This document shows positions 1 through 21,750 of a stretch of DNA of 64,000 nucleotides, one piece after another. This DNA comes from Xanthobacteraceae bacterium. GTDB taxonomy: Bacteria > Pseudomonadota > Alphaproteobacteria > Rhizobiales > Xanthobacteraceae. The stretch lies in contig JARBUD010000019.1 in the NCBI GenBank assembly GCA_029239875.1, positions 1 through 64,000 of the forward strand, given 5' to 3'. Below the pieces are notes generated by a model. It saw only the letters and a program-made list of their open reading frames with translations, searched no databases and had not been told where the DNA came from. Each line of letters begins with the position of its first letter. Positions within the stretch are counted from its first letter, which is position 1. A program made the position numbers and the translations under genes.

Positions 1-187
1 CGGCATAGGCCGGGTTCGGATCATCGAGATAGGTGACGGCCGCGAGCATGCCGTCATACTGGCGCTCCTGCGCCTTGGCATCGAGCATGCCCTGGATGGA
101 CGCGGAATAGGTTGCCAGCAGCAGTTGCTGCTGTTCGGCCGCCTTTTGGTCGGCGGTGATGTAGTCGGAAGGGGAAAGCGTGCGCAT
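1..187 (-). CDS. Small phage protein after tail fibre, 3' end outside window
   Basis: An open frame runs leftward from an ATG at 187 to the window edge and gives 62 codons without a stop. The protein starts MRTLSPSDYITADQK and is rich in Gln and Ala (a QQQLLL stretch near residue 20), which suggests a helical protein. Its ATG overlaps the stop of the preceding gene as ATGA, the same coupling seen between the other genes of the tail cluster, so it is likely co-translated with the tail fibre genes. I do not recognise the family. Genes at this place often encode tail-fibre accessory proteins, which is only positional inference. Confidence 0.6.
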   Translation of the reverse strand, partial: MRTLSPSDYITADQKAAEQQQLLLATYSASIQGMLDAKAQERQYDGMLAAVTYLDDPNPAYA

Positions 188-492
188 CAGAGGGTTTCCT
201 CGTCGGCCGGCAGCACGATCGCGCCATCGGCCGGATTGAGGATCGGCGCCGGAAAGGCGACCGCGTGCGACGGCGACGGCCCGTGTGGCAGGATCAGCGT
301 CAATTCGAGATCGCCGGCAACGCGGCTGACTTCGCCGACGATCCAGTCGGACAGAACCGCCCCGTTGGGAACGGTCGCGCCATCGGGTAGCCCGGAAAAG
401 TCAATCGCCTCGCCATTGATGGTGAGCACGTCGCCATTCTTGAAGGCAGTAAGAGTATCGTCGCGACGCTGAGGGGACAGATTGATTTTCAT
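187..492 (-). CDS. Hypothetical phage tail-cluster protein, 101 aa
   Basis: The reading frame begins MKINLSPQRRDD at an ATG overlapping the TGA of the tail fibre gene (ATGA at 489-494 on the minus strand). An in-frame Met three codons earlier is possible, but the ATGA coupling favours this start. The protein has no signal peptide or membrane segment. It contains NGDVLTINGEAIDFSGLPDGA, a short beta-strand-rich part, followed by a proline-rich C-terminus. Proteins like this commonly sit behind tail fibre genes in rhizobial prophages, but the function is unknown. It could be a fibre chaperone or a baseplate accessory. Confidence 0.65.
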   Translation of the reverse strand: MKINLSPQRRDDTLTAFKNGDVLTINGEAIDFSGLPDGATVPNGAVLSDWIVGEVSRVAGDLELTLILPHGPSPSHAVAFPAPILNPADGAIVLPADEETL

Positions 493-1826
493 CAGTACCA
501 CCGTCCAATTGCATGATAATGGAAAGTCGGGCTGCCGCCCGTCGTGTCTCGCGCAGAGTTACTTACGTTGGTGAAGTAAACGTTATTTATTCCAACAGCA
601 GTTACCCCGGTTACAGACGTATAAACAAAGGGTGACCACGCGCCGTCGTAACTATTAGTTACAACAGGCTGCGTTCCTCCAAGAAATGCGATTGGAAACG
701 TGTAAGCGCCTGCGTCGGCAAACGCGTAGGATGCTAGATTGCCCGGCGCACGAACATGACGACGCCAACATATCTGAGTGCCGTCGGCATAACGGACATA
801 ATCACCATTCGCATTAGTTCCCCGCTCGACGATCGCCCCGGTCGGCACTCCGCCCGCTTGCGATACGGCGCCGACGACACTGGCCGCGTGGTAGATCTTA
901 TAGGCAACGGCTCCGTGGGACCCGCCGCCGACCTTCCACTGGTTGTCGGTATCCAGCCCGAGATAGGCGGCGAACGCGCCCGGTCGGTGGAGCAGAATCG
1001 CGGCAGCGCCGGTGCCGTTGCCGCGTATCTCGACTTCGCCACCAGCGACGGAGGCATTGGCGATGCCGTTGTCGGCCTGCCCTCCGCCTGCCGCAATCAA
1101 GCGGCCGTCCATGGTGTCGCCGCCCTTGCCGAGTGCCCCCAGCGTCGCGCGGGCCGCCTCCTGGTCGACGTCATCCCGCATGCCCTGGATGAAGGGGGAG
1201 AAGCCCAAGGCCGTCAGGAGCGCGCCGACGCTGGTCGATGGCATCAAGCTGCCGAAGTACGTTGAGGGCGCCACATAGGGCGCCCAGCCCGTCCCGTTCC
1301 AGATCGAAATGATGCCCGTCGCGGCGCTCACCACCGTCGTGCCGCGCTCCGGCGCGGTGAAAAGCCAAGCGGCCCCGGTCCATTGCCCCAGGTTGTTCGC
1401 CCGCCCTGCCCAGGCGCCGGTCGGCACGGTGCCGACGACATAGAGGCCGCCGGCGACCGGAGCGCCCGGCGGGACATTGGCGCCGAGCGACTGCACCTCA
1501 TAGTTCGGCCGCGCGTTCTCGATCGCGCCGATGGCGCCGAGCACGCTGACGAGGCGGCTGTGCACGAAGGTCGCGTCGGCCGCCAGCGAGCTCTCAAGGG
1601 AGATCGCATAGGATGCGCCGGCGGCACTTGCGCCTGCCCAAGGCCGCGCCAGCGTCGCCGCTGTATCACTCTCGACCGACGCCAGAGGCATGCTGCTGTC
1701 ACCGACAAACAGGATGCCGCCGGCGACTCCGTTCACAACGAGGCCGGCGCCGGCGAAGGTCACGGCGGTCGACCCGTTAGTGACGGTAACCGTGCCGAGG
1801 GAAAAGACGGTGGGCGACGTCGGCAT
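492..1826 (-). CDS. Phage tail fibre / DUF2793-like protein, 444 aa
   Basis: The protein is rich in Gly, Ala, Ser and Thr, as fibres are. Around residues 115-190 it has the layout of DUF2793-type phage proteins (PGAPVAGGLYVVG, GAWAGRANNLGQWTGAAW, FTAPERGTTV), a module that precedes receptor-binding parts. Around residues 220-235 it carries the tail-fibre motif EAARATLGALGKGGDTMDG. The C-terminus (residues 330-444), with GTNANGDYVRYADGTQICWR and ending in FHYHAIGRWY, resembles the receptor-binding ends of many tail fibres. It probably recognises the host surface. It lies downstream of the tail-tip gene, which fits a distal fibre. Confidence 0.82.
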   Translation of the reverse strand: MPTSPTVFSLGTVTVTNGSTAVTFAGAGLVVNGVAGGILFVGDSSMPLASVESDTAATLARPWAGASAAGASYAISLESSLAADATFVHSRLVSVLGAIGAIENARPNYEVQSLGANVPPGAPVAGGLYVVGTVPTGAWAGRANNLGQWTGAAWLFTAPERGTTVVSAATGIISIWNGTGWAPYVAPSTYFGSLMPSTSVGALLTALGFSPFIQGMRDDVDQEAARATLGALGKGGDTMDGRLIAAGGGQADNGIANASVAGGEVEIRGNGTGAAAILLHRPGAFAAYLGLDTDNQWKVGGGSHGAVAYKIYHAASVVGAVSQAGGVPTGAIVERGTNANGDYVRYADGTQICWRRHVRAPGNLASYAFADAGAYTFPIAFLGGTQPVVTNSYDGAWSPFVYTSVTGVTAVGINNVYFTNVSNSARDTTGGSPTFHYHAIGRWY

Positions 1827-1835
1827 GGAATGTCC

Positions 1836-3167
1836 TCAGCTGAAATCGGAGATGTTCATGGTGGCCGTGAAGCCCGGCGCGCTGCCCCAGCTGCCCGGTC
1901 GGAACCAGCCGCATTGCGTGCGGTTCGCTACCCATCCGGCGGGCGCGTGGCCGGAATAGCCCCAGACGCCGACGGTCTGGTAGAATCCAAGCACGTCGAA
2001 ATAGGCGACGCTCCCGCAGCCGCACCACCACTCGCCGATCTGTGGATCCCAGAGGATGAATAAGTTGAACGGCGGCCCGGCGCCGGCGGGTGGCGGCGAC
2101 GGCAGGTTGAAGAACCCCGTGCCCTGCGAGGCGCCGACGGCGCTGAAGCCCTTGAGGCGTGGCGTCAGGCGATCGGAATCGAACACGAGGTCGGCGATGC
2201 CGGCGGCATCGATGCCGATGTTATGCTTGGAGACGCGGACATAATCCCCGGTGATGTCGAGCCGGACGATGCCCGCCGCACCGTCCACGCCGCCCTGGTA
2301 GGCCGGGTCGCTCGCCACAACCGCGAACCGCACCGGCGTCGAGAAGCTCGCCGTCCCGAGAATGAGCAGGCGGCTCGCATTGATCCAGAAGACGCTGCAG
2401 TTGATCTGTTCCGAATTCCCGACGGAGTAGGCGATCACTGGCGGATAGTGAGGATAGGAGCCCGCGAGATCGACGAACGCGGCCGGCATGGCAAAGGAGT
2501 TGACGTTCGGATCGGCGAGCGGGTCGGTCATGACCGTGCCGGTCAAGCTAACGGTCCCGGTCTCGAAGATCTGGAAGACGTTCTTGCGGGTCGAGACCGC
2601 CATCTCGGCGAGGGTCGCCGTGTCGACATCGAAGCCCGGGCGCGAGGCATGAAGGCCGACGCCATGCAAATCATGCTGCCCGATAATGATGCCGTTGCCG
2701 CCTGCGCTCTCCGCTGCCGTGCCATTGTTGCCGAACACGAAATACACGTAGTCGACGCCTGCGAGCTGCGGCGAAAGCAGGATGCTGTTGGTGCGCAGCG
2801 TGACGCCGCACTGGCGGTAGCCGCGCTGATAGCCCGTGGGCGTGTCGACTCCGCCAGAGGAATAGGTGACCGCCCCGGCGCCGCGGCGCGCCCATGCCAG
2901 TGTCGGCCGCGTCGCGTTCTCCCCGGCGCTCGGCAGCACCTTACACCGGCGGGTGATCGGCCCGTCGGCGCCGGCGGGATAGGTCACGGTCAGGTTCGCG
3001 AGGCTCGCCGCCGACACCACATTGTTGGCGAGAAGCCGCAGTGTCCCGCCCCAGAAGCTGTCGAAAGTCAGGTAGCGCTCGTCGGTATTCTCATCTTCCG
3101 GATCATGCCCCGGCAGCGCCGTGCGCAGCCGCATCGCTCCACCGGTTACGGTCAATGAGACAGGCAT
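1836..3167 (-). CDS. Phage virion-associated protein between tail tip and fibre, 443 aa
   Basis: The ATG at 3167 overlaps the stop of the tail-tip gene (ATGA), so the two are translationally coupled. The protein is rich in beta-prone and aromatic residues and has repeated Gly/Ser turns. It contains ITRRCKVLPSAGENA near residue 70 and GVDYVYFVFGNNG near residue 140. I recognise no enzyme motif. Position and composition suggest a structural protein of the tail tip or fibre. A host-binding or depolymerase role cannot be excluded, but no catalytic signature is visible. Confidence 0.68.
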   Translation of the reverse strand: MPVSLTVTGGAMRLRTALPGHDPEDENTDERYLTFDSFWGGTLRLLANNVVSAASLANLTVTYPAGADGPITRRCKVLPSAGENATRPTLAWARRGAGAVTYSSGGVDTPTGYQRGYRQCGVTLRTNSILLSPQLAGVDYVYFVFGNNGTAAESAGGNGIIIGQHDLHGVGLHASRPGFDVDTATLAEMAVSTRKNVFQIFETGTVSLTGTVMTDPLADPNVNSFAMPAAFVDLAGSYPHYPPVIAYSVGNSEQINCSVFWINASRLLILGTASFSTPVRFAVVASDPAYQGGVDGAAGIVRLDITGDYVRVSKHNIGIDAAGIADLVFDSDRLTPRLKGFSAVGASQGTGFFNLPSPPPAGAGPPFNLFILWDPQIGEWWCGCGSVAYFDVLGFYQTVGVWGYSGHAPAGWVANRTQCGWFRPGSWGSAPGFTATMNISDFS

Positions 3168-5770
3168 CAGCTCGTCGCCCTGATGCGAGCCGGATTGCTG
3201 GTGATCAGCAGCTTGCTGCCGGCCCCGGTGAGGGTGAAGTTGTTCACCGTCAGCCGCTTGATCAGGGCCTCGGTGATGATGACCTGGCCGAGCGTAGTAT
3301 CGACCACGAAGGGCGGCAGGCGGGCATCGTTGGTCGGGTTGATGATGACGTACTGGTCGGCATAGTTGGCGATGCGTGCGAACGGCAGCGCCGGGTTGCC
3401 GCCGGTGAAGCCGGTTTCCCAGATCGTGCCGACCTCGCGCCAGGCGCTGCCCACAGTCGCGCGCATGAGCACGACGAGGCGGGCGGAGACGTCGCCGCTG
3501 CCGGCACGGGCTTCGATCCGCAGGAGGCCGGAAGCGCCGAGGTTGCCGACCGTGGCGCTGACCGTGGTCAGCGACGACGAAACGGCCAGAAGCCCGCTCT
3601 CGGTCGTTTCCACCCGCGCGGTGAGCGCATTCATTGCCGATGCCTGCCCGGCGAGCGTCCCGTTGATGCTGTCGATCGACGCGCTCACGGCGTTGATGAT
3701 TTCGGCCATGGCGACGATCCGGTCGCCGAAATCCTGCACGGTGGCCTGCACGCTCTGGATTGCCGTCGCGTTCGCCTTGCCAAGCCGCGTCGCCACACTC
3801 GTGGCGGTAACCTGCCGACCGAGACCGACCGATGTGTCACGGACGATCATGTCCATCTGCTGCTTTGCCGCCGTCATGTCCTCGCGCATGCGTCGCAGCG
3901 CGTCGTAGGCGTCGCCCTTGATGTTGGCGAGGCGGACGTCGATGTCGGTATCGGGGATGGCGTCCGTGGTGATCGTTTCGCCGGCGCTCCACACGGTGAG
4001 GCGCGGCGGCTGCGTCACCAGCCGGGTCCTGACCTTGTATTCCGTGGCACGCACGACGCCCTCTGAGAGCGTCACCACCGTCTGATCGACCGAAACCCTC
4101 CTGGTGAACACCGACGCCGGCTGCGCCACCGGCCAGTACTGCACGTCGACATAGGCCACGGTGACGTCGGTGATGTTCGACCACGCCGCCCGGATAGCCG
4201 GCAGCAGGCGGCCGTCGTCCCCGACAACGGTCACCGGCGCGAGACTGAAATCCTGCACCTCGCTGAGCAGCACCGGCGCGCCGGGCGGCATCGGCGCCAC
4301 GATCGGCGGCGCCGTGATGCCGTCATAGATCGCGCCGTCGACTTCCTGCAGCGTGACCGAGACGTTGCGCGGCCCGTCGGCATCGTGCGAGGCGAGCGAC
4401 AGGCCGGTGATCTGATACACGCGGTCGCCATGCTTGCGGCCGACGCGGCGGATCCAGTCGCCGGGCTCCAGCACCTGAAACCGCGGGCGCCACACCTCGT
4501 CGCTGGTCGCCTCGTAGCGGTTCTCCTCGAGATAGATGCGAGCGAGCTGCGCCGCCTGATCCTTCGACCGCACCATAGGGAAGTCGACGGCGATATCGCG
4601 GTTGCGGCGGTCGAGCGTCACCAGCGCCGGGCTGGTCTGCGTCTCATAGCCGATCATCGACCAAAGCTGATCGGGATCGGGGAAGTTGCCGGCCACCGAG
4701 TTGACGAGGTCGCTCATCGAGCGGCGCGCCGTCCAGCGCGCAGGCGAACTGGAGATCAGGTCGTCGTCGGTGATGGTGGCGACCACCGCCTGATCATGGC
4801 CGACCAGCGGCCAGGACCCATCCACCGCATCGACCTTCTTGGCCCCGCACGACAGCTGCAGCGACGTGATGTTCTCGCCGTGCATGGCGGTGCAGTCGAG
4901 CATGATCGAGCAGCGGTAGCGCGTGCCGTAGTCCGTCGTCTCGTCGCAGATGTTCGCCGCCGCGGTCCATTTCGCCAGCGGCAAATCGCTGGCCGGCATG
5001 CCCATGCCGCAGAACATGTCGCCGTTCCATGCGATGCCGCGCCGGTAGTTGTATTCCATCACCACCGGGTTTTCGGTGTACTCATAGGTGGCGTAGTTCC
5101 CCCAGCGGTGGCCGCCGGAGCCGCCAACGGTGGAATCCTTGCGCCAGTCGTAGAGCCGCGCGCCATAGAACTCGAAGAAGAAGTCGGGGAAGCTGGTGAG
5201 CGGCTCGGTATAGGCTAGCGCGACGTAGACATAGGCGACGCCGGCGCCGATGTGATTGGCGGTCCACCGGTCGGCCGGGTTTGCCGCCGACACCAGCCCT
5301 GCCAGAGCGGCGGTTTGCGTGCCATCGACGAACTGGACGCGGATAAGGTCGGCGTACTCGCCACTGGTGACCTTCCGCATCCCGTCTTCGCCGACCGGGC
5401 CAAGTGTTACCCATTTGCCGTTGATGGCAACGCGCGACAGGCCGTGGCAGGGGAAGTCCGACAGCGTGTAGATCTGCTGGAATATCCCGTTCGCCGGCCC
5501 GAACGTGTTCGCGTAGGTATCGTGGCCCGCGATGCCGCAAAGGCCGAGGGCGACCTGCCGCGGGATATCGCCGCCATATTGCCGTTCGAACTGCACGCCG
5601 CCGGGCTGCTTCTCCGCTTTTCCGGCCGTCTCCTTCTGGATGACGCTGGAGAGCACGCTGGCGCCGATGCCGAGCAGCGCCTGGCCGACGATGCCGAGGC
5701 TGCCGACGAACGAGCCGACGGCGCCGATGGCGGCACCAACGGCTCCAACTATCGGGGCAATGAACGGCAT
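3167..5770 (-). CDS. Phage tail tip / host-specificity (J-like) protein, 867 aa
   Basis: The N-terminus has a Gly/Ala-rich hydrophobic stretch (MPFIAPIVGAVGAAIGAVGS) typical of tail-tip proteins of this class. It is followed by the conserved start of the family, with FERQYGGDIPRQVALGLCGIAG near residues 60-80. The middle contains the hub-like part with EPGDWIRRVGRKHG. The last 250 residues contain a heptad-rich helix (DAYDALRRMREDMTAAKQQMDMI) and a beta-rich tip. It probably forms the central fibre that contacts the host. The length and the order behind a DUF6950 gene fit lambda-like tail tips. Only four bases separate it from the upstream gene. Confidence 0.85.
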   Translation of the reverse strand: MPFIAPIVGAVGAAIGAVGSFVGSLGIVGQALLGIGASVLSSVIQKETAGKAEKQPGGVQFERQYGGDIPRQVALGLCGIAGHDTYANTFGPANGIFQQIYTLSDFPCHGLSRVAINGKWVTLGPVGEDGMRKVTSGEYADLIRVQFVDGTQTAALAGLVSAANPADRWTANHIGAGVAYVYVALAYTEPLTSFPDFFFEFYGARLYDWRKDSTVGGSGGHRWGNYATYEYTENPVVMEYNYRRGIAWNGDMFCGMGMPASDLPLAKWTAAANICDETTDYGTRYRCSIMLDCTAMHGENITSLQLSCGAKKVDAVDGSWPLVGHDQAVVATITDDDLISSSPARWTARRSMSDLVNSVAGNFPDPDQLWSMIGYETQTSPALVTLDRRNRDIAVDFPMVRSKDQAAQLARIYLEENRYEATSDEVWRPRFQVLEPGDWIRRVGRKHGDRVYQITGLSLASHDADGPRNVSVTLQEVDGAIYDGITAPPIVAPMPPGAPVLLSEVQDFSLAPVTVVGDDGRLLPAIRAAWSNITDVTVAYVDVQYWPVAQPASVFTRRVSVDQTVVTLSEGVVRATEYKVRTRLVTQPPRLTVWSAGETITTDAIPDTDIDVRLANIKGDAYDALRRMREDMTAAKQQMDMIVRDTSVGLGRQVTATSVATRLGKANATAIQSVQATVQDFGDRIVAMAEIINAVSASIDSINGTLAGQASAMNALTARVETTESGLLAVSSSLTTVSATVGNLGASGLLRIEARAGSGDVSARLVVLMRATVGSAWREVGTIWETGFTGGNPALPFARIANYADQYVIINPTNDARLPPFVVDTTLGQVIITEALIKRLTVNNFTLTGAGSKLLITSNPARIRATS

Positions 5771-5773
5771 CGG

Positions 5774-6178
5774 TCAGTCGACCCGGAAGGCGCGCGCGAC
5801 GTCGGTGCAGGGCAGGAACACGGCGCGATCACCGTCGCGGGTGAGGAAGCCGAGGCCGGTGAAGACCCCACCGGTGACGTCACCATTCGGCTGGTGGATG
5901 ACGCCGATATCCCCGCGCTGCGCCATCATCGCCGGGATCTCGGTGAAGCGGGCCGCGAAGGCATCCGCAACGGTCAGGAAGCCGCGCTTCCGCAGCTTCT
6001 TCGCGGCGCCGGCCGCCGTGCGATAGCCCCGCGCCCCCGTGAACATCCGCTTGCCGGTGACGGCTTCGACGGCGTCGTCGGCGATGATGTAGCAATCCGA
6101 GATGCCATAGGCCGACGGCAGGGCGATATGCTTCTCGACCACGAGCCGGAGCTCGCGTTCCCATCCCTTGATCCGCAT
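5774..6178 (-). CDS. DUF6950-like phage tail-assembly protein, 134 aa
   Basis: I place the start at MRIKGWERELRLVVEKH (ATG at 6178). The longer open frame upstream is read antisense through the end of the fused portal gene and is Arg-rich, so it is unlikely to be used. The protein has the pattern of small proteins encoded just before J-like tail proteins (DUF6950): YGISDCYIIADDAVEAVTG with Cys and Asp near residues 20-35, ARGYRTAAGAAKKLRKRG, and a C-terminal MAQRGDIGVIHQPNGD. The Cys/Asp arrangement recalls the NlpC/P60-like tail protein lambda K, but a clear catalytic His is not certain. Confidence 0.75.
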   Translation of the reverse strand: MRIKGWERELRLVVEKHIALPSAYGISDCYIIADDAVEAVTGKRMFTGARGYRTAAGAAKKLRKRGFLTVADAFAARFTEIPAMMAQRGDIGVIHQPNGDVTGGVFTGLGFLTRDGDRAVFLPCTDVARAFRVD

Positions 6179-6194
6179 GGTGAGTGGTCCGCTT

Positions 6195-7034
6195 TCAGCG
6201 CCGGCGAGGCGTCGTCGATCGGGGCACCTGGGGTCGCGGCGCCGCGGCCTTTTCCCGCCCCCAGAAGATGACTTCGCGACCGCGCATGGCGGCGTGCTCA
6301 AAGAACAGATCGCCCGGCGCGCGACGCGCCTGGTCGACAACGGTGCGCCGGCGCCCGTTGGTGCGGGTGTAGTCGAGCGCCCGGCTCTCGCACTTGGCCT
6401 CGAGCGTGTAGCCGTCCTCCGGATCGTCGATGTGGTCGATCGTGTCGATGTAGCCGCGCTTCAATGCCTGGACGTGGAGCAACGCGCCGGTGTCGGGATG
6501 GAAATAGACGTCATAGATGGTCACCGGCCGGTCCCGGTAATCCTCGGCTTCGATCGTCAGCAGCACCTCAGGCGTCAGACCACCCTCGCTCCACCGATAT
6601 TCGAGCTCACCATCGGCCCGGCGGCGAACGGTCACCAGATCCGGCCGAATGGGCTCCAGCGAGACGATCCGTTCGCCGCTCCGTTCGATCAGCGCATAGG
6701 CGTTACCCCAGAGCTCAAGGCTGATGCACATGAACTCCCAAAAGTCGATCGGCGTCTGATCGGCATTCGGGCTGTCGCGCAGCACGCGGGCAAGCGGATG
6801 ATCACCCGCATCCTCGGGCCGGCCGTCGCGGTTACGCTGCACGTCAATGGGAAGCGCAGCCATCGTGCCGGCCAGCAGATTGACACATGCCCAGGCGGTC
6901 GAGAGAGCGAGCACGCTGTCGACCGTGATGCGCTCGCCGGCGTGACTGTCGCCGCCGTCGTAGCCCGGCAAATGCCGGTCGCGCAGGCCGAACGGGCGCA
7001 CGATGTAGCCAAAGGCCTTGCGCAACAGCTTCAC
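6195..7034 (-). pseudogene. Portal protein N-terminal half fused in frame to the end of a tail-tip gene
   Basis: Residues 1 to about 148 match the start of HK97-type portal proteins: GERITVDSVLALSTAWACVN, LAGTMAALPIDVQR, DHPLARVLRDSPN, FWEFMCISLELWGNAY and IRPDLVTVRR. From about residue 153 the protein changes to another family: VLLTIEAEDYRDRPV, FHPDTGALLHV, RGYIDTIDHIDD, CESRALDYTRTNGRR, ending near FWGREKA. That pattern belongs to proteins encoded just before DUF6950 and tail-tip genes. HK97-type portals usually have around 400 residues, while this product has 279. The fusion point lies near 6565-6600. The frame is intact (GTG start overlapping the terminase stop), but neither half is complete, so I call it a deletion-fusion remnant. 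Confidence 0.75.
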
Positions 7035-8860
7035 GACGCGGTCGCCATGCTCTTGAGGTAGCCGTCCATACCGTCTGCCTCGTCGAATTCGTTGTCCGCC
7101 GCGCCGACGGCCATGGCGATCGTCACCATGCCGTCGATCCGGCCTCGCGAGCGCTTCTTATCGAAGGCACGGTTATCTTGGCCGTCGATGTCCATGTGCG
7201 CGTTGGCGGCACAGCTGTGCGTGACGGGCGACGCCTCAATCGTGATCGTGCGGGAGAGGATGCGATCCTCCAGCCGCTCCACAGATCGGGGCATCGTGAG
7301 CTGCTTGTCCTCGAAGCGCACCAGTTTGCCTTGGGCGTGGCTCACCAGCTTGAGGCCCGATCCCTCTGGCTCATCCGGCCCCGTCCAGCGCCAGACGTCG
7401 AACCCGATCTGTTCGCAAGCCGCTATGAAGTCGAGCATGCCGGCCGGGTCGAACGCCAGAAACTCAACCTCGTTAGCGGCGCATAGCTCTTTCACCTTCG
7501 CAGCCACGAAGGTCTTGTCGATCACAGCTCCCGGCACAGCCGCGAGCCGGGTAGTTGGATCAAGTGCCCACTGGTCGTATGGCGTGTTGTCCGCCTTGGA
7601 TCGATCGGCGATGCCGTCCGCGGTGGTCCAGTAGAATGTGCGCACCCAGAGGTGCCCGTCCTTGTCCTCCCAGCAGATACTGAGAGCCGTCAGGTCGTTC
7701 TTTTTCGAGAGGTCTAAGCTTAGCCAGCATCGGCGGCCCTTGACCTTGGCTTCATCGATCTGGCCCTGAACCGCAACCCAGGCCTCTTCGGCGATCCAGA
7801 ACTCGGTGGCGCCAATCGGAATGCCGAAATAGAGCCGTTTCACCGACTGGGCAGTCGATAGGAGCACCCGCGCGGTGTTCACCTCACCGATGATGTTCTC
7901 TTCGGGGAAGGTGATGCCCAGCGCCGGAAGCGCCTTGCGCCAGCAGGCCGGGTTGTCGAAAACGGCCTCGCGGTCCTTCGTGTCTACCCGGGCAATGAAG
8001 GCGAACGCCTCGTCGTCCCTGATCTCGCCGCGCGCGACCTTCTGGTAGAATTCGGAATAGTCGGTGCCGACGATCTGGTCCGATGCCGGCGTATTCGTGC
8101 CGAGCAGCATCAGCGCATCGCCCGGCATCTTCGCGATGGCGCGCTTCCATGTCTCGATCGAATGGTTCGACTTGAACTCGTGGATCTCGTCAGCCAGCAC
8201 TGCGACAGGCCGCGGCCCAGATATGGCCTCGCCGTTGGCGAGCGACTGGAACTTCGAGCCGGTGGCGGGGTGCTCGATCTTCCAGGCGTTGTCGCCCTCG
8301 CCACGGATCAGCACGTCGCCGGTGTTTTCCAGCGTCTCCCGAATCTCCTCCGGCTCGTCCTCCTGGCCCGGCGTCGCGGCCCGGCACATCGCGACAGCAT
8401 CCTTGAACAGGACGTTGGCGGTCGCGCGGTCCTGCCCAATGGAGAACACCTCGGCGCGGGGCACTCCGTACCAGCCCATCAGGTAGAGCCCGATCGCCGC
8501 CATGATCGGCGACTTCGCCTGCCCCTTCCCGGTCTCCAGCCACGCCGAGCGAAAGCGCATTCGCCCGCTCTCCTTGCGCCAGCCAAACAGGCTACCCGCA
8601 ACGAACACATGCCACGGGAGAGGATTGAAAGGCTGTCCAGCCGCCGAACCCGCAGTGATCGGCAGCATCGCGGGAAAGAACCGCAGTGCTCGGCCGGCCT
8701 TCTCCGGAACCCAGTGAAGGCCCCGTCCGCCGTCGACGATATCGCGTAGGTGGCGATCAGCCGCGGATGCTACGATTTCTCCTACGACGATCCGCCCGTC
8801 GACTGCGTCACGCGCCCAACGCGTCGTCGGATCATCCGGCAGCTTTGCCTTTGAACTCAT
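7031..8860 (-). CDS. terL: Phage terminase large subunit, 609 aa
   Basis: This is the DNA-packaging motor ATPase and nuclease. The N-terminal ATPase has a Walker-A-like FRSAWLETGKGQAKSP near residues 105-120 and a Walker B AVLADEIHEF near residue 225. The coupling motif GTNTP lies near residue 257. The nuclease part begins at WLSLDLSKKNDLTALS near residue 395, with further acidic residues in FLAFDPAGMLD and RIDGMVTIAMA at the C-terminus. Length and order match complete phage TerL proteins. I chose the ATG at 8860; a GTG three codons earlier is possible. It overlaps the small subunit by 29 bases. Confidence 0.93.
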   Translation of the reverse strand: MSSKAKLPDDPTTRWARDAVDGRIVVGEIVASAADRHLRDIVDGGRGLHWVPEKAGRALRFFPAMLPITAGSAAGQPFNPLPWHVFVAGSLFGWRKESGRMRFRSAWLETGKGQAKSPIMAAIGLYLMGWYGVPRAEVFSIGQDRATANVLFKDAVAMCRAATPGQEDEPEEIRETLENTGDVLIRGEGDNAWKIEHPATGSKFQSLANGEAISGPRPVAVLADEIHEFKSNHSIETWKRAIAKMPGDALMLLGTNTPASDQIVGTDYSEFYQKVARGEIRDDEAFAFIARVDTKDREAVFDNPACWRKALPALGITFPEENIIGEVNTARVLLSTAQSVKRLYFGIPIGATEFWIAEEAWVAVQGQIDEAKVKGRRCWLSLDLSKKNDLTALSICWEDKDGHLWVRTFYWTTADGIADRSKADNTPYDQWALDPTTRLAAVPGAVIDKTFVAAKVKELCAANEVEFLAFDPAGMLDFIAACEQIGFDVWRWTGPDEPEGSGLKLVSHAQGKLVRFEDKQLTMPRSVERLEDRILSRTITIEASPVTHSCAANAHMDIDGQDNRAFDKKRSRGRIDGMVTIAMAVGAADNEFDEADGMDGYLKSMATAS

Positions 8861-9266
8861 CCGACGCACGGGCGGCCCTCGACTTCCGCTCGACCTTGGT
8901 CACGGCACCACGACGGCGCGGCGAGAGCCCGAGCTCGGCTTCGAGTGTCGCCGCATCGTTGCCGGCCTCGCGCATGGCGGTGAAATGCGGGCTCAGCCGT
9001 GCGATGGCCTTGTTGTTTCCGCGCCGCGGCTTCGTCACTGCGCCGTGCTCGGCGACGTCGCGTGCCGAACGGTCAAAGATCACGTATGCCAGCACGAGCC
9101 GCTGGATGGCATGCCGATTGGCGGGCGCGAGCAGGTTGCGTTCGCGGAGCTCGGTGGTTACAGCCCGCCAGTATTCGGCCGCGGCCTCGATCTCCAGATC
9201 ATCGGTCAACAGCATGCGCCAATGCGGTTCCGGCACGATCTGCCCGGAGCCCTCGATCACGTTCAT
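8832..9266 (-). CDS. terS: Phage terminase small subunit, P27-like, 144 aa
   Basis: This is the DNA-recognition subunit of the packaging terminase. It has the layout of P27-family small subunits: a helical N-terminus with AAAEYWRAVTTELRERNLLAPANRHAIQRLVLAYVIFD spread over residues 28-68, then the conserved loop HGAVTKPRRGN, the helix PHFTAMREAGNDAATLEAELGLSPRRRGAVTK, and a basic tail. P27 proteins normally end near SPxxR, as here. It lies just before the large subunit and overlaps it by 29 bases, as is typical. Confidence 0.88.
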   Translation of the reverse strand: MNVIEGSGQIVPEPHWRMLLTDDLEIEAAAEYWRAVTTELRERNLLAPANRHAIQRLVLAYVIFDRSARDVAEHGAVTKPRRGNNKAIARLSPHFTAMREAGNDAATLEAELGLSPRRRGAVTKVERKSRAARASDEFKGKAAG

Positions 9267-9408: not shown

Positions 9409-9762
9409 TCAGGCTCGGTTCCACGGGTGGTTCGGATCGAGAGGACGGCCATCCAGGTCGGAGCCGATCACGCCGCCTGTCCGCTCCTGCTTCTGCTTGG
9501 TGCTGTTGTGGTGGGTTTCGCAGAGCGGCTGCCAGTTGGAGCGAGACCAGAAGAGCTTGGCGTCCCCTCGGTGGGGGATGACGTGGTCGACGACGGAAGC
9601 CGGAACGACCTTGCCGTGCTGCTCGCACATGCGGCAGAGCGGGTGCTCGGCGAGGAAGTGGAGGCGGGCACGCTCCCACTTGCTGTCATAGCCGCGCTGT
9701 CGCGCTGAACCACGGCGGTCATCAGCCTGGTGCTTTGTCACTAGCCTGCTGCGTTGTCCCAT
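9409..9762 (-). CDS. HNH endonuclease, 117 aa
   Basis: This HNH nuclease sits directly before the terminase genes, as in many HK97-type phages, where it works with terminase in DNA packaging. The start is MGQRSRLVTKHQADDRRG (ATG at 9762). The core carries CRMCEQHGKVVPASVVDHVIPHRGD and NWQPLCETHHNSTKQ, giving two zinc CxxC-type pairs and the HNH triad (His in VVDHV, Asn in NWQPLC, His in THH). N-terminal extension beyond Met is possible but runs into an unrelated segment. A 142-base spacer separates it from the terminase small subunit. Confidence 0.92.
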   Translation of the reverse strand: MGQRSRLVTKHQADDRRGSARQRGYDSKWERARLHFLAEHPLCRMCEQHGKVVPASVVDHVIPHRGDAKLFWSRSNWQPLCETHHNSTKQKQERTGGVIGSDLDGRPLDPNHPWNRA

Positions 9763-9934
9763 CGGGCTGTGGACCAGTGACCTCGTCGGAATTGCTCTCG
9801 TCCTTGAGCTTGTTCGCGATGTGCCCGGCCGCTTATTTGGTTTGGGCAGCGACAGCCCTGACATCGCCGCACACGATGGCGCGGACATTGGTCTTGGCGG
9901 AGACGCGTGCCTCGATGCAAGATCGGCAGGTCAT
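9722..9934 (-). pseudogene. Possible small cysteine-containing phage gene interrupted by a stop
   Basis: Reading leftward from an ATG at 9934 gives a 33-codon frame (MTCRSCIEARVSAKTNVRAI through VRAVAAQTK) that ends in TAA at 9833. The same frame then stays open and continues with coding-looking composition (AAGHIANKLKDESNSDEV) to a TGA at 9722, inside the start of the HNH gene. A CxxC pair lies at the N-terminus. The two halves together look like one protein of about 70 residues with an internal stop. Alternatively only the 33-residue peptide is real, or neither is. Confidence 0.3.
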
Positions 9935-11539: not shown

Positions 11540-12565
11540 ATGACTGATTCTGACGATCCGGGGAGCCGCCATGCCAAAGGCGGCATCGCGCGTGCCAAGG
11601 CACTTTCGCCCGAACAGCGCGCCGAAAGCGCTCGAAAGGCCGCCGCTGCACGCTGGGCTAAGCCTCCCGCACCGCCGCCAGCCTCCAGTGGTATCAAGGA
11701 CCTAACTCAAGAAGAGCTAGACGCGCTGCCGTTCGCCAAGTGGCGCGGCAAGATCGATCTGGGCGGCAACGAACTCGATTGCTATGTCCTCAACGACGAG
11801 ACGCGCGTCCTTTCGTCCGGCTCGACCACCAAGGCCATCGCGAATATCGAACGAGGAAGCCTGCAGGACTACATAGGCCAGAAATCTCTTAACCCATTCA
11901 TCGATAAGGACAAAATCCTGCAGGAAACTGTGCGATTTACGATTCCTGGAACGCAATGGGCCGCCATCGGTATCACCACCGAACACTTCGAACTTATTTG
12001 CCGCGGATATGTCCAGGCGTTGTATGAAGGGGCCAGCCTTACCGACCGCCAGCGCGAGATCGCCATCCGATGCGCTATGTTGACTGCGGGCCTCAGCCGC
12101 ATCGGTCTTGACGCCCTTGTCGATGAAGCGACCGGCTACCAATACGAGCGCGCCGAAGATGCTCTGCAGGTGAAGTTGCGCGCCTTCATTTCGGAAGAGC
12201 TACGAGCGTGGGAAAAAACGTTCCCTGATCAGCTTTGGGAGGAGTTCGGACGGCTTACGGGGTGGAAGACCCCGCTGCAGAGCCGTCCGAAGTGGTGGGG
12301 AAAGCTTGTTACAGAACTGATCTACGACACGTTGGACGACGATGTTGCCAAATATCTGAAGGAGAATAAGCCCCCGGCCGGCGCGCGCTGGCATCAACAG
12401 CTGACCGACAACTATGGGGTTCGGCAGTTGGTGTCTCGCTGCTACGAGGTCATTGGCATGGCTAAAACATGCGATGACATGCACGAGTTGCGCAGTCGAG
12501 TTGGGCGGCACTACGGCAAGAAGCCGGTGCAATTCACGATGTTCTTGAAGCCACCAAACGATTGA
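11540..12565 (+). CDS. P63C-domain phage protein, 341 aa
   Basis: The start MTDSDDPGSRHAKGG follows AGGAGG by six bases, so the longer upstream frame is not used. Residues 10-45 are the common basic helix KGGIARAKALSPEQRAESARKAAAARWA. The middle contains LGGNELDCYVLNDETRVLS and a helical part. Residues about 215-340 are the P63C domain: FISEELRAWEKTFPDQLWEEFGRLTGW, RPKWWGKLVTELIYD, VAKYLKENKPP, RWHQQLTDNYG and a helical end before FTMFLKP. P63C proteins occur in phages and islands and have no established biochemical role; a silencing or DNA-related role is only speculation. It stands alone, with its own promoter-like region and terminator. Confidence 0.88.
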   Translation: MTDSDDPGSRHAKGGIARAKALSPEQRAESARKAAAARWAKPPAPPPASSGIKDLTQEELDALPFAKWRGKIDLGGNELDCYVLNDETRVLSSGSTTKAIANIERGSLQDYIGQKSLNPFIDKDKILQETVRFTIPGTQWAAIGITTEHFELICRGYVQALYEGASLTDRQREIAIRCAMLTAGLSRIGLDALVDEATGYQYERAEDALQVKLRAFISEELRAWEKTFPDQLWEEFGRLTGWKTPLQSRPKWWGKLVTELIYDTLDDDVAKYLKENKPPAGARWHQQLTDNYGVRQLVSRCYEVIGMAKTCDDMHELRSRVGRHYGKKPVQFTMFLKPPND

Positions 12566-14739: not shown

Positions 14740-15693
14740 TCAGCCCTCCAGCCGGGTTTCGAGGTCAAGGGATGCCGCGAGCCCGAACTTCTCCAGGACG
14801 GCAGGCGAGAGGCGGCAACCGGGCTGCCCAGGCGGGGCACCCCAGGTGCCGGGCCACAAGCGGCGAGACATGGCGTCCCGAACGCGATCGGGATGCGGGA
14901 GGTTGTGAGGCCAGTCAGGAGGGAGCGCTGGCGCCGACGCCGGCGAGGCGGCGATAGCATTTGGAGCCTCGCCATACTCCTCCCAAGCCCCGCTCAGGAA
15001 CGTGGCGGCCTGTTTGACGTAGCTGGTCCCGAGGTTGCCCTTGCGCTCGACTTCGCGCCGGTATGCCGTCGCCGATGCGACCAGGCGCCCGGGATCGGTG
15101 CCCTTGCCGACGAGAGACCCGAACCGGGTGCGCGCCTTCGTCCAATCCTGCGAGCCGTCTCGCTTCGGATAGGCCGCTTTGAAGTCCAGAAACGCGGCTT
15201 CAATGTCCGATTTTGAATTAGGGACTATAGGGTTATTTCTAGTCTCTGGATTTAGAACGCGCGCGCGATGCTTGGAACCCGCTTCAAGCCCGGCTTCAGC
15301 CAAGCCACTGATATTGCTTTCCTCGGCGTTCTTTTCAGCCTTAAGTTTGCGAGTTTCAGCCGATTTATTTCCGCCTTTCGCGCCGTTTTCGGCGAGCTTT
15401 CGGGCAGTTTCCGCGGAGATATCGACCTCGCGCATCGCGCGCGGATTGATGATGAAACCGCCCTCGGCGACAATCTTGCCCTCGTCGATCAGCGTGGCCC
15501 GGATCGTGTTCCATTTGCGGACGGAGCATCCGCAGTGACCAGCGATCCAATGCGCATTATCCGGGATAGGTCCGCGGCGGTCATAGATCAGATCGAGCAC
15601 CACCGAATAGGCACCCTTGACCTCCAGAGGGAGCCCCGCTGTGCCGTGGAGAAAGTCTGACGGGTAGCGCCGATACCAGGGCTTTTCGCTCAT
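14740..15693 (-). CDS. DUF1376-domain phage replication protein, 317 aa
   Basis: Residues 1-90 match DUF1376: WYRRYPSDFLHGTAGLPLEVKGAYSVVLDLIYDRRGPIPDN, a gap, then CSVRKWNTIRATLIDEGKI and GGFIINPRAMRE. This fold resembles the winged-helix N-terminus of lambda O-type initiators. A charged linker with ETRKLKAEKNAEE follows, then a C-terminal domain from about residue 165 with FLDFKAAYPKRDGSQDWTKARTRF and TSYVKQAATFLSGAWEEY, as found in helicase-loader-type proteins. The stop of the gene and the start of DnaB are coupled (overlap at 15693). The likely role is origin recognition or helicase loading. Confidence 0.85.
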   Translation of the reverse strand: MSEKPWYRRYPSDFLHGTAGLPLEVKGAYSVVLDLIYDRRGPIPDNAHWIAGHCGCSVRKWNTIRATLIDEGKIVAEGGFIINPRAMREVDISAETARKLAENGAKGGNKSAETRKLKAEKNAEESNISGLAEAGLEAGSKHRARVLNPETRNNPIVPNSKSDIEAAFLDFKAAYPKRDGSQDWTKARTRFGSLVGKGTDPGRLVASATAYRREVERKGNLGTSYVKQAATFLSGAWEEYGEAPNAIAASPASAPALPPDWPHNLPHPDRVRDAMSRRLWPGTWGAPPGQPGCRLSPAVLEKFGLAASLDLETRLEG

Positions 15694-17126
15694 CAGCCCT
15701 CCCCGTTCGGATCGCGCACCGCCGAGGCGGCGATGTCGACGAACAAGTCGACGCCGACGGTCGGCCCGTTGCGGTTCTTGGCGGCGATGATTTCGAGGCG
15801 GTCGCGCACGAGGTCGTAGCGCGCCAAGGCGCTCGGATCGCCTTCCTTGTATTCGCTCGTGGTCGCGACGTAGTACGCCTCGCGATAGACGAAGAGCACG
15901 GCGTCGGCGTCCGCTTCGATGTCTCCGCTCTCTCGCAGATCCGCAAGTTGCGGGCGCTTGTCTTCCCGGCTCTCAACGCCGCGATTGAGCTGAGCAAGGA
16001 GCACGATGCAGACACCCTGCTCCTTCGCCACCGCGCGAAGGCCCGCGGTGATCTCGCCGACCTCATAGACCCGATTGCCCTTGTACCGATCAGCAGCGCG
16101 CAGGAGCTTCAGATAGTCGATGAAGACCACGCGCAGATCGACGCCGCGCGCGGCGAGGTTCCTCTTGGCCGCCAAGACCCGCGCCGACACCTCGGCAACG
16201 GACAAACGTGCCGAGTAGTCCAACTCCAGCGGCAGCGTCTTCAGCATGGCGTCGGCGCGCAGCAGGCTTTCCATCTGCGCGTCGGACACACGGCCGCGCT
16301 TCACGGCCGAATAGGCGATGGCGTTTCCGCGGTGAAAAGCGACATCGGTAACGAGCCGCGCGGCCAGATCGTCCCGCCCCATTTCCAGGCTGAAGTAAAG
16401 CGTGCCGTTGCCGGCCGAGGCGCACTGCCAAGCCGAACTCGTGCCGCAAGTGGTCTTGCCCATGCCGGGGCGTCCGGCGAGCACCACGAGCTGGCCAGGG
16501 ATATATCCGCCCATGACGTCGTCGAGCGAGCGCCAGCCGGTCGTTGCACCCAGCAACATCGGCTCGCCCATGCGGTGCGCATTCACCTTTGTCAGCAGCG
16601 CCTCAGAGCTGGCGCCGGCCGGCTGGCGGGTGCCTTCTTTCTCCGCGATGCCAGCGCGCACCTCGTCGACAGACGTCAGGATCGCGGCGAGGCGCTCGGA
16701 TGCCATGCCGGGCGACGCTTCCACCTCCCGAACCGCGGCAAAGACGGCACGCAGCGCACCAGCGTCGCGGATGTCGCGGGCATAGGACTTGACCATGGAC
16801 GGCGGCGCTGCAGCGGAGCCGAGACGCGCCACGTAGGCGCCGAACGTCAGATCACCGAGGATCGGCTGATTCCATCCCGCCCCGAGGTCGTGCGCGAGAG
16901 ACCGGGCATCAGAAAGGGAACCCCGTGCCGCACGCTCTGCCATAGCCGCATAGAGCCTGCCGTGCAGGGGCTCGGCGAAGCTCTCCGGCGATAGGAGTGC
17001 CGACGCCGCTGGGAAGGCGTCAGGCATCACCAGAAGCGCGCCGAGCAACGATTGCTCAATCTCGACGATCGCGTGGTTGGCATCTGCGGGCCGAACCGCG
17101 ATAGCCATAGAAGACATGTCCATCAT
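15693..17126 (-). CDS. dnaB: Replicative DNA helicase, DnaB type, 477 aa
   Basis: The N-terminal DnaB domain starts near EIEQSLLGALLVMPDAFP (residue 23). The RecA-like motor begins near residue 200 with TGWRSLDDVMGGYIPGQLVVLAGRPGMGKTT, including the Walker A GRPGMGKTT. Walker B is VVFIDYLKLL near residue 340, and the later motif CIVLLAQLNRGVESREDKRPQLADLRESGDIEADAD is the DnaB-specific sensor region. Length agrees with phage and plasmid DnaB. It overlaps the small gene before it by four bases and the DUF1376 gene after it by one, so replication proteins are co-translated. It probably replaces the host DnaB at the phage origin. Confidence 0.95.
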   Translation of the reverse strand: MMDMSSMAIAVRPADANHAIVEIEQSLLGALLVMPDAFPAASALLSPESFAEPLHGRLYAAMAERAARGSLSDARSLAHDLGAGWNQPILGDLTFGAYVARLGSAAAPPSMVKSYARDIRDAGALRAVFAAVREVEASPGMASERLAAILTSVDEVRAGIAEKEGTRQPAGASSEALLTKVNAHRMGEPMLLGATTGWRSLDDVMGGYIPGQLVVLAGRPGMGKTTCGTSSAWQCASAGNGTLYFSLEMGRDDLAARLVTDVAFHRGNAIAYSAVKRGRVSDAQMESLLRADAMLKTLPLELDYSARLSVAEVSARVLAAKRNLAARGVDLRVVFIDYLKLLRAADRYKGNRVYEVGEITAGLRAVAKEQGVCIVLLAQLNRGVESREDKRPQLADLRESGDIEADADAVLFVYREAYYVATTSEYKEGDPSALARYDLVRDRLEIIAAKNRNGPTVGVDLFVDIAASAVRDPNGEG

Positions 17127-17698: not shown

Positions 17699-17720
17699 AC
17701 GCATTGTGGGAAAAATGGGA

Positions 17721-18335
17721 ATGATGAGCGAACCAGGCGAACGTTTGGCTGAGGCGCGCAAGCGTGCCGGCTACAAGACAGGCTCCGACGCGGCGCGCGC
17801 GTTCGGCTGGCCCGTCTCTACCTATCTCGGGCACGAGAACGGGGACCGCATCCCCAGGATCGACGCAGCCAAGCGATACAGCCGCGCCTTCCGCGTACCG
17901 TGGACTTGGATCCTCGACGGCGGCGAACTGCCGGAGGATTACAGGCCAACGCTCCCGCTCGTCGGCTATGTCGGGGCCGGCGCAGAAGTGATCCCGTTTG
18001 ATGACCACGCAATGGGTGCGGGCCTCGATGAGATAGAGGCTCCGCCAGGAGCTCCGGCCGATGCAGTTGCGGTGAAGGTCCGCGGCGAAAGCATGTGGCC
18101 GGTCTTTCACGATGGCGACACCATCGTCTTCGACGAGCGGCGATCCGGCCCGGATTTGGTGACCTATGTCGGGCGCGAGTGCATCATCCGTCTGGAGGAC
18201 GGGCGCACCTTCATCAAGATGCTGACAAAGGGATCGGCTGAAGGCTTCTGGACGCTGATCAGCTATAATGCGCCCCCTGTCACGGACGTCGCCGTGGAAT
18301 GGGCCGCGAAAGTGCACTGGATAGAACGAGCCTGA
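17721..18335 (+). CDS. CI-like phage repressor with S24 peptidase domain, 204 aa
   Basis: The start could be any of several Met codons; I choose MMSEPGERLAEARKRAG at 17721. Residues 5-65 are an XRE-type helix-turn-helix (ARKRAGYKTGSDAARAFGWPVSTYLGHENG). Residues about 95-200 are the S24/LexA-like domain: LVGYVGAGAEVIPFDD with the Ala-Gly-type cleavage region, RGESMWPVFHDGDTIVFD carrying the Ser of the Ser-Lys dyad, and FIKMLTKGS carrying the Lys. It keeps the prophage silent and may cleave itself after DNA damage through RecA. It is flanked on both sides by copies of its presumed operator. Confidence 0.92.
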   Translation: MMSEPGERLAEARKRAGYKTGSDAARAFGWPVSTYLGHENGDRIPRIDAAKRYSRAFRVPWTWILDGGELPEDYRPTLPLVGYVGAGAEVIPFDDHAMGAGLDEIEAPPGAPADAVAVKVRGESMWPVFHDGDTIVFDERRSGPDLVTYVGRECIIRLEDGRTFIKMLTKGSAEGFWTLISYNAPPVTDVAVEWAAKVHWIERA

Positions 18336-20304: not shown

Positions 20305-20728
20305 TCCTCTCGCGCGAATTCGGCTCCGCCCGAGCATCGACCAGTGGCGCGACGATGAATCTATGACACTCGCGGAAGCCGCAGCCCTATTCTTCCCTGA
20401 AGGTCCGCTAACCACCGCGTCATTCCGCAAGGCTGCGAAGCGCGGCGACCTTGCGGTACGGCGCCTGCTGGGCAAGGATTTCACCACTCCCATGTCCGTC
20501 CGCGAGATGTTGAAGCCATGCCGGGCCGAAAGCCAAAGCCTCCCCGCCTCTATCTCCGAGAGCGCGACGGCCGCGAAAGGCTCTGGGTTATCATCGACCG
20601 GGGACGGGAAATCAGCACAGGCTGCGGCGAAAAAGAGGTTCGCGGAGCTGAAGAACGCTTCCAGGAATATCTCGCCGGCAAACACGTCTCGACCGTCGGC
20701 ACCCGTGATTTCACTCGGCTCAAAGTAG
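20294..20728 (+). CDS. Excisionase-like helix-turn-helix protein, 144 aa
   Basis: Residues 20-75 fit a MerR/AlpA-like excisionase fold: MTLAEAAALFFPEGPLTTASFRKAAKRGDLAVRRLLGKDFTTPMSVREML. The position directly before the integrase supports a directionality factor. The last 70 residues (AESQSLPASISESATAAKG and on) are Ser/Ala-rich and are encoded in a different frame over the first 211 bases of the integrase gene. Similar excisionase/integrase overlaps are, as I recall, common in rhizobial elements. The tail could be partly neutral, since it is set by the integrase frame. Confidence 0.75.
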   Translation: MARDPLARIRLRPSIDQWRDDESMTLAEAAALFFPEGPLTTASFRKAAKRGDLAVRRLLGKDFTTPMSVREMLKPCRAESQSLPASISESATAAKGSGLSSTGDGKSAQAAAKKRFAELKNASRNISPANTSRPSAPVISLGSK

Positions 20729-21750
20729 CCGATGTCCTGACCTTTTACGCCGAGGCAAAGGCCCGTCCGGCCACCGCGACGGTGAAAGCCGCGGCGCGCT
20801 ACCGAGAGATGCTCGCGTTCTGCGAAACGCTGTCGGAATGGTGGGGTGGGAAGAACGTCAGTGATATCCGCGGTGAGACATGCCGCCAGTACGTCGAGTG
20901 GCGGACCGCCCAGCCGCTGCGCCGCGCCAAGACCGAAGCGGCGCTCAAGAAGCGCGTCAGCCCCGCCACCGCGCGCCGTGAACTCGAGGTGCTTCGTGCG
21001 GCCGTGAACCTGTATCACGCCGAGTACACCCTTCCCTCAGTTCCCAAAATTACACTGCCGGAGAAGTCGGTGCCGCGCGATCGGTGGCTCACCCGTGCGG
21101 AGGTTGCCGCGCTGCTGTGGGCATGCCTGGGTTGGCGGCGCGAGGTCGACACAGGCCGCTGGGCTAAGATCCAGCCGGAAGGCATCCGCAAGCAGACGCG
21201 TACCCGACGCGCGCACATTGCTCGATTCATCCTCATCGGCCTCTACACCGGCACGCGCCACGAGGCGATCGAGCGGCTGCAGTGGCACGCGAATGTCGAT
21301 GGTGGCTGGGTCGACCTCGGCCGCGGCTTGCTCTATCGGCGCGGCTCAGGAGAGCGGGAAACGAAAAAGCGTAGACCGCCGGCGCGCATTCCTCACCGTC
21401 TCATGCCTCATCTTCTCCGCTGGCAGCAGTTGGACCGGACGCACCCGACCTCGAACGAGCACCCGATCAGGCATGTCATTCACACCAGCACCGGCGAGGG
21501 CTTGTCTACGCCGATCCGAACAGGCTGGGAGGGCATCCGGAACGACGCCGCCCTCGGCGCTGACGTCGTCCCCCATGTGCTGCGACACACCTGCGTCACC
21601 TGGCAGCTTCAGGCCGGCGTGCTTCCGTGGGAGGTTGCCGGCGCCGTCGGCATGACCGTCGAGCAGATCGAGAACGGGTATGGTCATCACTCGCCGGACT
21701 ATCAAAAAGCGAGCGCAGAGGCGTTTGGGAAGAGAACAACGCCGCCATGA
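20518..21750 (+). CDS. int: Tyrosine-type site-specific integrase, 410 aa
   Basis: The protein has a short N-terminal beta part (arm-binding), a SAM-like core-binding region around residues 65-150 (LKVADVLTFYAEAKARPATATVKAAARYREML) and a catalytic domain from about residue 185. Catalytic residues are visible: Arg in YTGTRHEAIERL, Lys in the RETKKRRP loop, HxLR in VPHVLRHTCVTW, His in GYGHHS and Tyr in SPDYQKA. It ends 320 bases before the tRNA-Pro fragment and recombines the phage into that tRNA. Its first 211 bases overlap the excisionase-like gene in another frame. Confidence 0.95.
   Translation: MPGRKPKPPRLYLRERDGRERLWVIIDRGREISTGCGEKEVRGAEERFQEYLAGKHVSTVGTRDFTRLKVADVLTFYAEAKARPATATVKAAARYREMLAFCETLSEWWGGKNVSDIRGETCRQYVEWRTAQPLRRAKTEAALKKRVSPATARRELEVLRAAVNLYHAEYTLPSVPKITLPEKSVPRDRWLTRAEVAALLWACLGWRREVDTGRWAKIQPEGIRKQTRTRRAHIARFILIGLYTGTRHEAIERLQWHANVDGGWVDLGRGLLYRRGSGERETKKRRPPARIPHRLMPHLLRWQQLDRTHPTSNEHPIRHVIHTSTGEGLSTPIRTGWEGIRNDAALGADVVPHVLRHTCVTWQLQAGVLPWEVAGAVGMTVEQIENGYGHHSPDYQKASAEAFGKRTTPP

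Follow-up and report, generated by a model that had tools for sequence, protein, structure and literature searches.

An in-frame fusion of portal and tail genes points to a large internal deletion in a prophage of a Xanthobacteraceae bacterium

The stretch of DNA analysed here (the window, 64,000 nucleotides) starts at base 1 of contig C46 of a draft genome, and it opens with part of an integrated phage genome whose far end lies just beyond an integrase gene. The features of this element within the window, including the open reading frame (ORF) that concerns us here and its two parts, are as follows.

1-68, no strand: contig-end overlap, 68 bp identical to C50:1-68 on the opposite strand
492-1826, minus strand: tail fibre protein (DUF2793), 444 aa
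1836-3167, minus strand: tail-region protein, 443 aa, 95% identical to its L007 counterpart
3167-5770, minus strand: tail-tip protein, 867 aa, full length, 87% identical to L007
5774-6178, minus strand: DUF6950 protein, full length, 98.5% identical to L007
6195-7034, minus strand: chimeric ORF, 279 aa, an N-terminal portal part and the C-terminal part of a tail (hub-like) protein in one frame
6195-6581, minus strand: tail protein remnant, residues 152-279, sharing 95-98% identity with the C-terminal part of the intact tail genes of L006 and L007
6582-6588, minus strand: putative deletion joint, codons 150-151, with portal-like letters upstream and tail-gene-like letters downstream
6588-7034, minus strand: portal remnant, residues 1-149, with about 72% identity to the N-terminus of the 418-aa L009/L050 portal
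7031-8869, minus strand: terminase large subunit (TerL), 612 aa, apparently full length by Pfam and PHROGs
8832-9266, minus strand: terminase small subunit (TerS; Terminase_4; Pfam, PHROGs)
9409-9888, minus strand: HNH endonuclease (Pfam, PHROGs)
14740-17126, minus strand: replication genes, a primosomal/DUF1376 protein (14740-15693) and a DnaB helicase (15693-17126)
17706-18335, plus strand: CI-like repressor with HTH and Peptidase_S24 family matches
20518-21750, plus strand: integrase, 410 aa
22072-22119, plus strand: att core, 48 bp, the end of the element in the window

The att core is identical to the 3' end of a tRNA-Pro gene on contig C50 (C50:11936-11983, within the gene at 11936-12012), so that the integrated element is bounded by a 48-bp repeat, one copy at the tRNA gene and the other beyond the integrase. 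Because the two contigs that carry these ends share the 68-bp overlap, we infer that the element continues from C46 into C50, as far as an endolysin gene and the other att site. C50 onward indeed carries the endolysin, cargo genes and an antirepressor before the tRNA-Pro gene is reached, and a metagenome contig from a public viral collection extends 29 bases past the end of C46, and these extra bases agree with C50:69-97. If C46 and C50 are treated as adjoining contigs, the element measures about 34.0 kb (22,119 bases on C46 and about 11,915 on C50). The cargo on C50 (L061, 5602-8676) comprises an AI-2E family transporter, a cyclopropane-fatty-acid synthase-like methyltransferase and a shortened SRAP protein that covers model positions 2-89 of 214.

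Judged by their family matches and by alignment, the integrase, repressor, replication, terminase, tail-tip and endolysin genes are present and look whole. Residues 2-612 of TerL align with a 73% identical relative (L069, among the best 80 of 181 matching stretches), and the DUF6950, tail-tip and 443-aa proteins align over their full lengths with those of L007 (87-98.5% identity), the last of them giving no Pfam or PHROGs family match at E 0.1. The first-pass annotation had described the terminase, replication, switch and integration genes as intact in appearance, and all of them match the expected families, with the one qualification that the integrase is a strong match in PHROGs (phrog_1, 1e-30) and falls below the cut-off in Pfam.

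The ORF at 6195-7034 begins with GTG, is open throughout and shares its first 4 bases with the end of the TerL ORF. PHROGs divides its 279 residues between two families with neither a gap nor an overlap: residues 26-151 belong to portal family phrog_12 (profile positions 74-195 of 646, E 2.7e-30) and residues 152-275 to tail protein family phrog_2048 (positions 251-376 of 390, E 1.5e-24). Pfam finds Phage_portal (PF04860) on residues 45-158; this match covers model positions 1-108 of 321, far from the full domain that would mark a functional portal. The earlier reading of this ORF, an HK97-type portal over residues 1 to about 148 followed from about residue 153 by the end of a gene that normally precedes DUF6950 and the tail tip, is thus borne out by both family assignments. 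The intact form of the tail gene, as seen in L007, encodes 208 residues, of which 1-195 match phrog_2048; the complete L007 gene gives a further match, at 1.5e-06 and barely above the cut-off, to PF09931, whose description is that of a baseplate hub attachment domain. We read the 279-residue product as a scar: about one third of the portal remains in it, together with about 60% of the tail protein, and it very likely does neither job. Pfam would nevertheless label it 'portal protein', a label to be read with caution, as a working portal is unlikely to remain.

The arrangement of intact relatives gives this fusion its meaning. In 391 genomes of the family, with at most six candidate places scored per genome, 61 places match the 279-residue protein at E <= 1e-10, our own included. 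Both halves are covered only at the window's own place; the other 60 match either the portal half (51) or the tail half (9). The nine tail-half matches come from eight genomes, and in five of these (G219, G227, G060, G045 and G145) a portal-half match lies on the same contig, 9.8-15.3 kb away. Local comparison of four related prophages placed the separate portal and tail matches 9,851 bases apart in G227, 9,811 in G219, 9,119 in G268 and 11,026 in G045, and in all four DUF6950 and the tail tip come next after the tail gene, the order that the first-pass annotation had taken to be normal. The interval is most fully annotated in G227, where it encodes a protease, capsid, head closure, tail terminator, major tail/tail tube, tape measure and distal tail proteins; in L007 a portal, a ClpP-like protease, capsid, tail tube and tape measure are recognisable there. 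The genes said earlier to be missing (capsid, protease, connectors, tail tube and tape measure) are among those found between the two halves in G227.

Each relative resembles the window in some respects and departs from it in others. Two intact-looking prophages of the same genus, G219 (L047) and G227 (L045), have the gene order of the window, with a portal 60% identical to the remnant and, about 9.8 kb further on, a tail gene (75-76%), DUF6950 (71%) and tail tip (54-55%); unlike the window, they carry the portal and tail genes whole and separate, as open frames of 463 and 212 aa on either side of the head and tail module, and their TerL is only about 21-23% identical to that of the window over the matched parts. 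L007 and G268 (L049) are much closer on the tail side (tail gene 95%, DUF6950 98.5%, tip 87%, 443-aa protein 95%) but have another type of portal (28%) and again retain the head/tail module. The closest intact portal is that of L009 and G151 (L050), 72-73% identical to the remnant over residues 1-154; there, in contrast to the window, a full 418-aa portal precedes two ORFs whose lengths, 239 and 431 aa, are those of protease and capsid genes, and no related TerL was detected at E 1e-4. No exact parent phage turned up; the best portal match (73%) and the best tail-gene matches (95-98%) belong to different prophages. Comparison of window 3167-8869 with L007, L009 and L045 indicates a mosaic ancestry: the portal remnant has its nearest relative in one prophage (72-73%) and the tail end in others (95-98%), and TerL is close to none of the three.

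The joint itself can be placed within a few bases. At the DNA level, homology to the intact tail genes of L006, L007 and L008 runs out at window 6578-6581, and that to L009, the closest intact portal, at 6586; comparison at the codon level places the joint within 6582-6588. There are no obvious inserted letters. Portal and tail relatives differ around codons 149-152 in a way that is compatible with a few shared bases at most (GG or GGT), as judged from these relatives. A search for repeats around the joint found nothing at the joint; this is weak evidence, since a deletion between repeats leaves one copy, and a repeat-mediated route stays compatible with it. The lack of obvious insertions and the few shared bases at most suggest that illegitimate recombination is the likely route. 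The same joint is present in the metagenome contig mentioned above, which is identical to the window over 17,034 bases. That contig may come from the same strain or even from the same data, and it supports the joint rather than proving it independently.

We conclude, with a probability of about 0.93, that this prophage, integrated at a tRNA-Pro gene, has undergone one internal deletion of about 9-11 kb that fused its portal and tail genes in frame. That one deletion joined the two genes was also the explanation put forward in the first-pass annotation, and it gains from finding the genes separate and 9.1-11.0 kb apart in relatives. A single event, probably by illegitimate recombination, would have joined portal codon ~149 to tail-gene codon ~80 in the same frame. 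Joining in frame happens by chance in one case in three, so selection for the fusion need not be invoked.

Could the 279-residue protein instead be a normal gene, typical of a family of phages that combine a short portal-like protein with a tail domain? Nothing speaks for such an architecture except that the ORF is open throughout, and the searches speak against it. None of the 60 other places in the 391 family genomes has both halves, and none of 534 matching records in a phage collection covers 80% of the protein. EBPR siphovirus 3, among the 30 matches listed of those 534, aligned over residues 36-250 and was considered as a similar fusion, but was rejected: its match is a whole ORF (record 1715-3124) that matches through the portal half, the tail half alone gives no match to it (best E 1.3), and the tail part of the alignment is an over-extension of the portal alignment. 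As a control we took the relatives of TerL, keeping the best 80 of 181 matching stretches, and looked at the gene downstream. A recognisable portal ORF ends inside the locus in 58 of the 80, and 57 of these 58 are at least 370 aa long; the lone short one is the metagenome copy of the window sequence. These figures leave out 22 relatives, six with a portal ORF cut by the end of the locus and 16 with no downstream portal match; among the 16, three have fewer than 250 bases left, nine carry another ORF of at least 400 aa there and four do neither. In these four metagenome loci (L090, L110, L128 and L129), 1.4-2.0 kb of downstream DNA holds no portal match and no ORF above 207 aa at the portal's place; they are perhaps other portal arrangements, frameshifts or decayed elements. 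The fusion occurs in one of 30 genomes of the genus, our own, and in the viral contig collection on the one contig identical to the window. The 391 family and 30 genus genomes were searched for the fusion itself, not for every kind of headless relative, and it was found in our own genome only. A whole-protein pattern scan of genome contigs gave 100 pattern matches and no relative, a weak result, because such a scan reaches close relatives only and perhaps left out our own genome. Among the papers listed by literature searches none was specific to this fusion, which is not to claim that such fusions are absent from print. The first-pass annotation had named one observation that would count against it, the same 279-residue protein as a normal full-length gene; it was sought, in several collections and with differing sensitivity, and did not appear. 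With about two thirds of the portal family also missing from the protein, the phage records, the family genomes and the portals beside TerL relatives together lead us to reject a natural two-domain protein, whose chance we put at next to nil.

An artefact of assembly is somewhat easier to imagine, and still very improbable. Here the assembler would have joined two prophages or skipped the interval, and the genome offers some opportunity: it is a draft in 71 contigs with a contamination estimate of 2.35, and C17/C42 and C65 carry further prophage-like regions that include portal and capsid genes. But a chimera of this kind requires that the joint lie in shared sequence or that one half be present twice, and no close second copy of either half exists in the genome to mislead the assembler: the L007 tail gene matches the genome at the window only, and the L009 portal reaches 28-31% identity on other contigs. 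On C17, C42 and C65:20001-51608 the missing genes have distant relatives (at most 47.4% identity), and TMP_3 has no match in the genome, a weak negative since tape measure proteins are diverse. The second assembly with the same joint, perhaps not from independent data, adds to this, and on these two grounds, the absence of a second close copy and the recurrence of the joint, we reject the artefact in favour of the deletion.

Do the lost genes occur elsewhere in the element? We compared the ORFs in the interval of four reference prophages, picked mechanically (ATG or GTG start, at least 90 aa, longest first, so that short genes are missed), with the window and C50:1-40000, and there was no match except those to the portal and tail parents. 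Genome-wide, capsid-family genes are on C65 and C42 only, and portal-family genes on C65, C17 and C42 only, apart from the remnant in the window. Essential virion genes of the element are thus lost or broken: the portal is truncated, the capsid family is on other contigs only and, the two parents apart, none of the interval ORFs of the four references matches the window or C50:1-40000. From the known roles of the missing families we expect the prophage to make neither heads nor tail tubes, and hence to form no infectious particles alone. It is very probably a defective prophage, one that is predicted still to be able to excise and replicate. We judge the deletion to be probably recent, because the integration, repressor, replication, packaging-motor, tail-tip and lysis genes look whole; this is no more than a judgement, since the shortened SRAP protein on C50 suggests that other decay may exist. 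That gene may be a second, perhaps older, decay scar.

The kind of event is ordinary prophage decay, already known, and this is a well-resolved fresh example of it. Defective prophages in general, as described in a review (PMC11389934), are integrated phages that have lost structural genes, as here; this one differs from the general case in that the deletion ends inside two genes, in frame. The same review treats defective prophages as possible precursors of helper-dependent elements, which makes mobilisation by another phage a plausible idea, known in kind, and helper mobilisation of the present prophage may be possible. A stronger version adds to the deletion that it has just created a proto-satellite, which keeps its own integration, replication, terminase and lysis functions and borrows heads and tails from the prophage on C17/C42; such an element is predicted to excise, replicate and be packaged in particles of another phage, for instance that one. 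The integrase, replication genes, TerS, TerL and att sites of the window prophage look whole, over residues 3-601 the TerL of C17 is 68% identical, and C17/C42 also has portal and capsid genes. Set against this, the small terminase of C17 is only 41% identical, and no relative with the same fusion was found in the 391 family genomes, the 30 genus genomes or the viral contigs, hence no sign of spread. We regard this extension as unlikely, while holding to the deletion itself.

The deletion prophage is a tidy, well-bounded and probably recent case, and the strain could serve to test what becomes of a prophage just after it loses its head genes, as well as whether a co-resident prophage can carry a headless one. 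The second prophage, at C17 (L040) 1064-3263, has its related terminase genes (TerL 68%, TerS 41%) next to a quite different portal (33.6%), which suggests that packaging and head genes have been shuffled. C17 and C42 overlap by 33 bp at their ends, and there each contig has part of a portal gene. It thus seems that two prophages in this genome are each divided between a pair of contigs whose ends overlap slightly, by 68 bp in the first case (window 1-68 and L061 1-68) and by 33 bp, inside the portal gene, in the second (L040 1-33 and L044 18284-18316). Finally, short repeats, mostly of about 80-130 bp and in both orientations, occur in the chromosomal part of the window (32420-61030) and on C50 and C65, and they look like dispersed intergenic repeat families.
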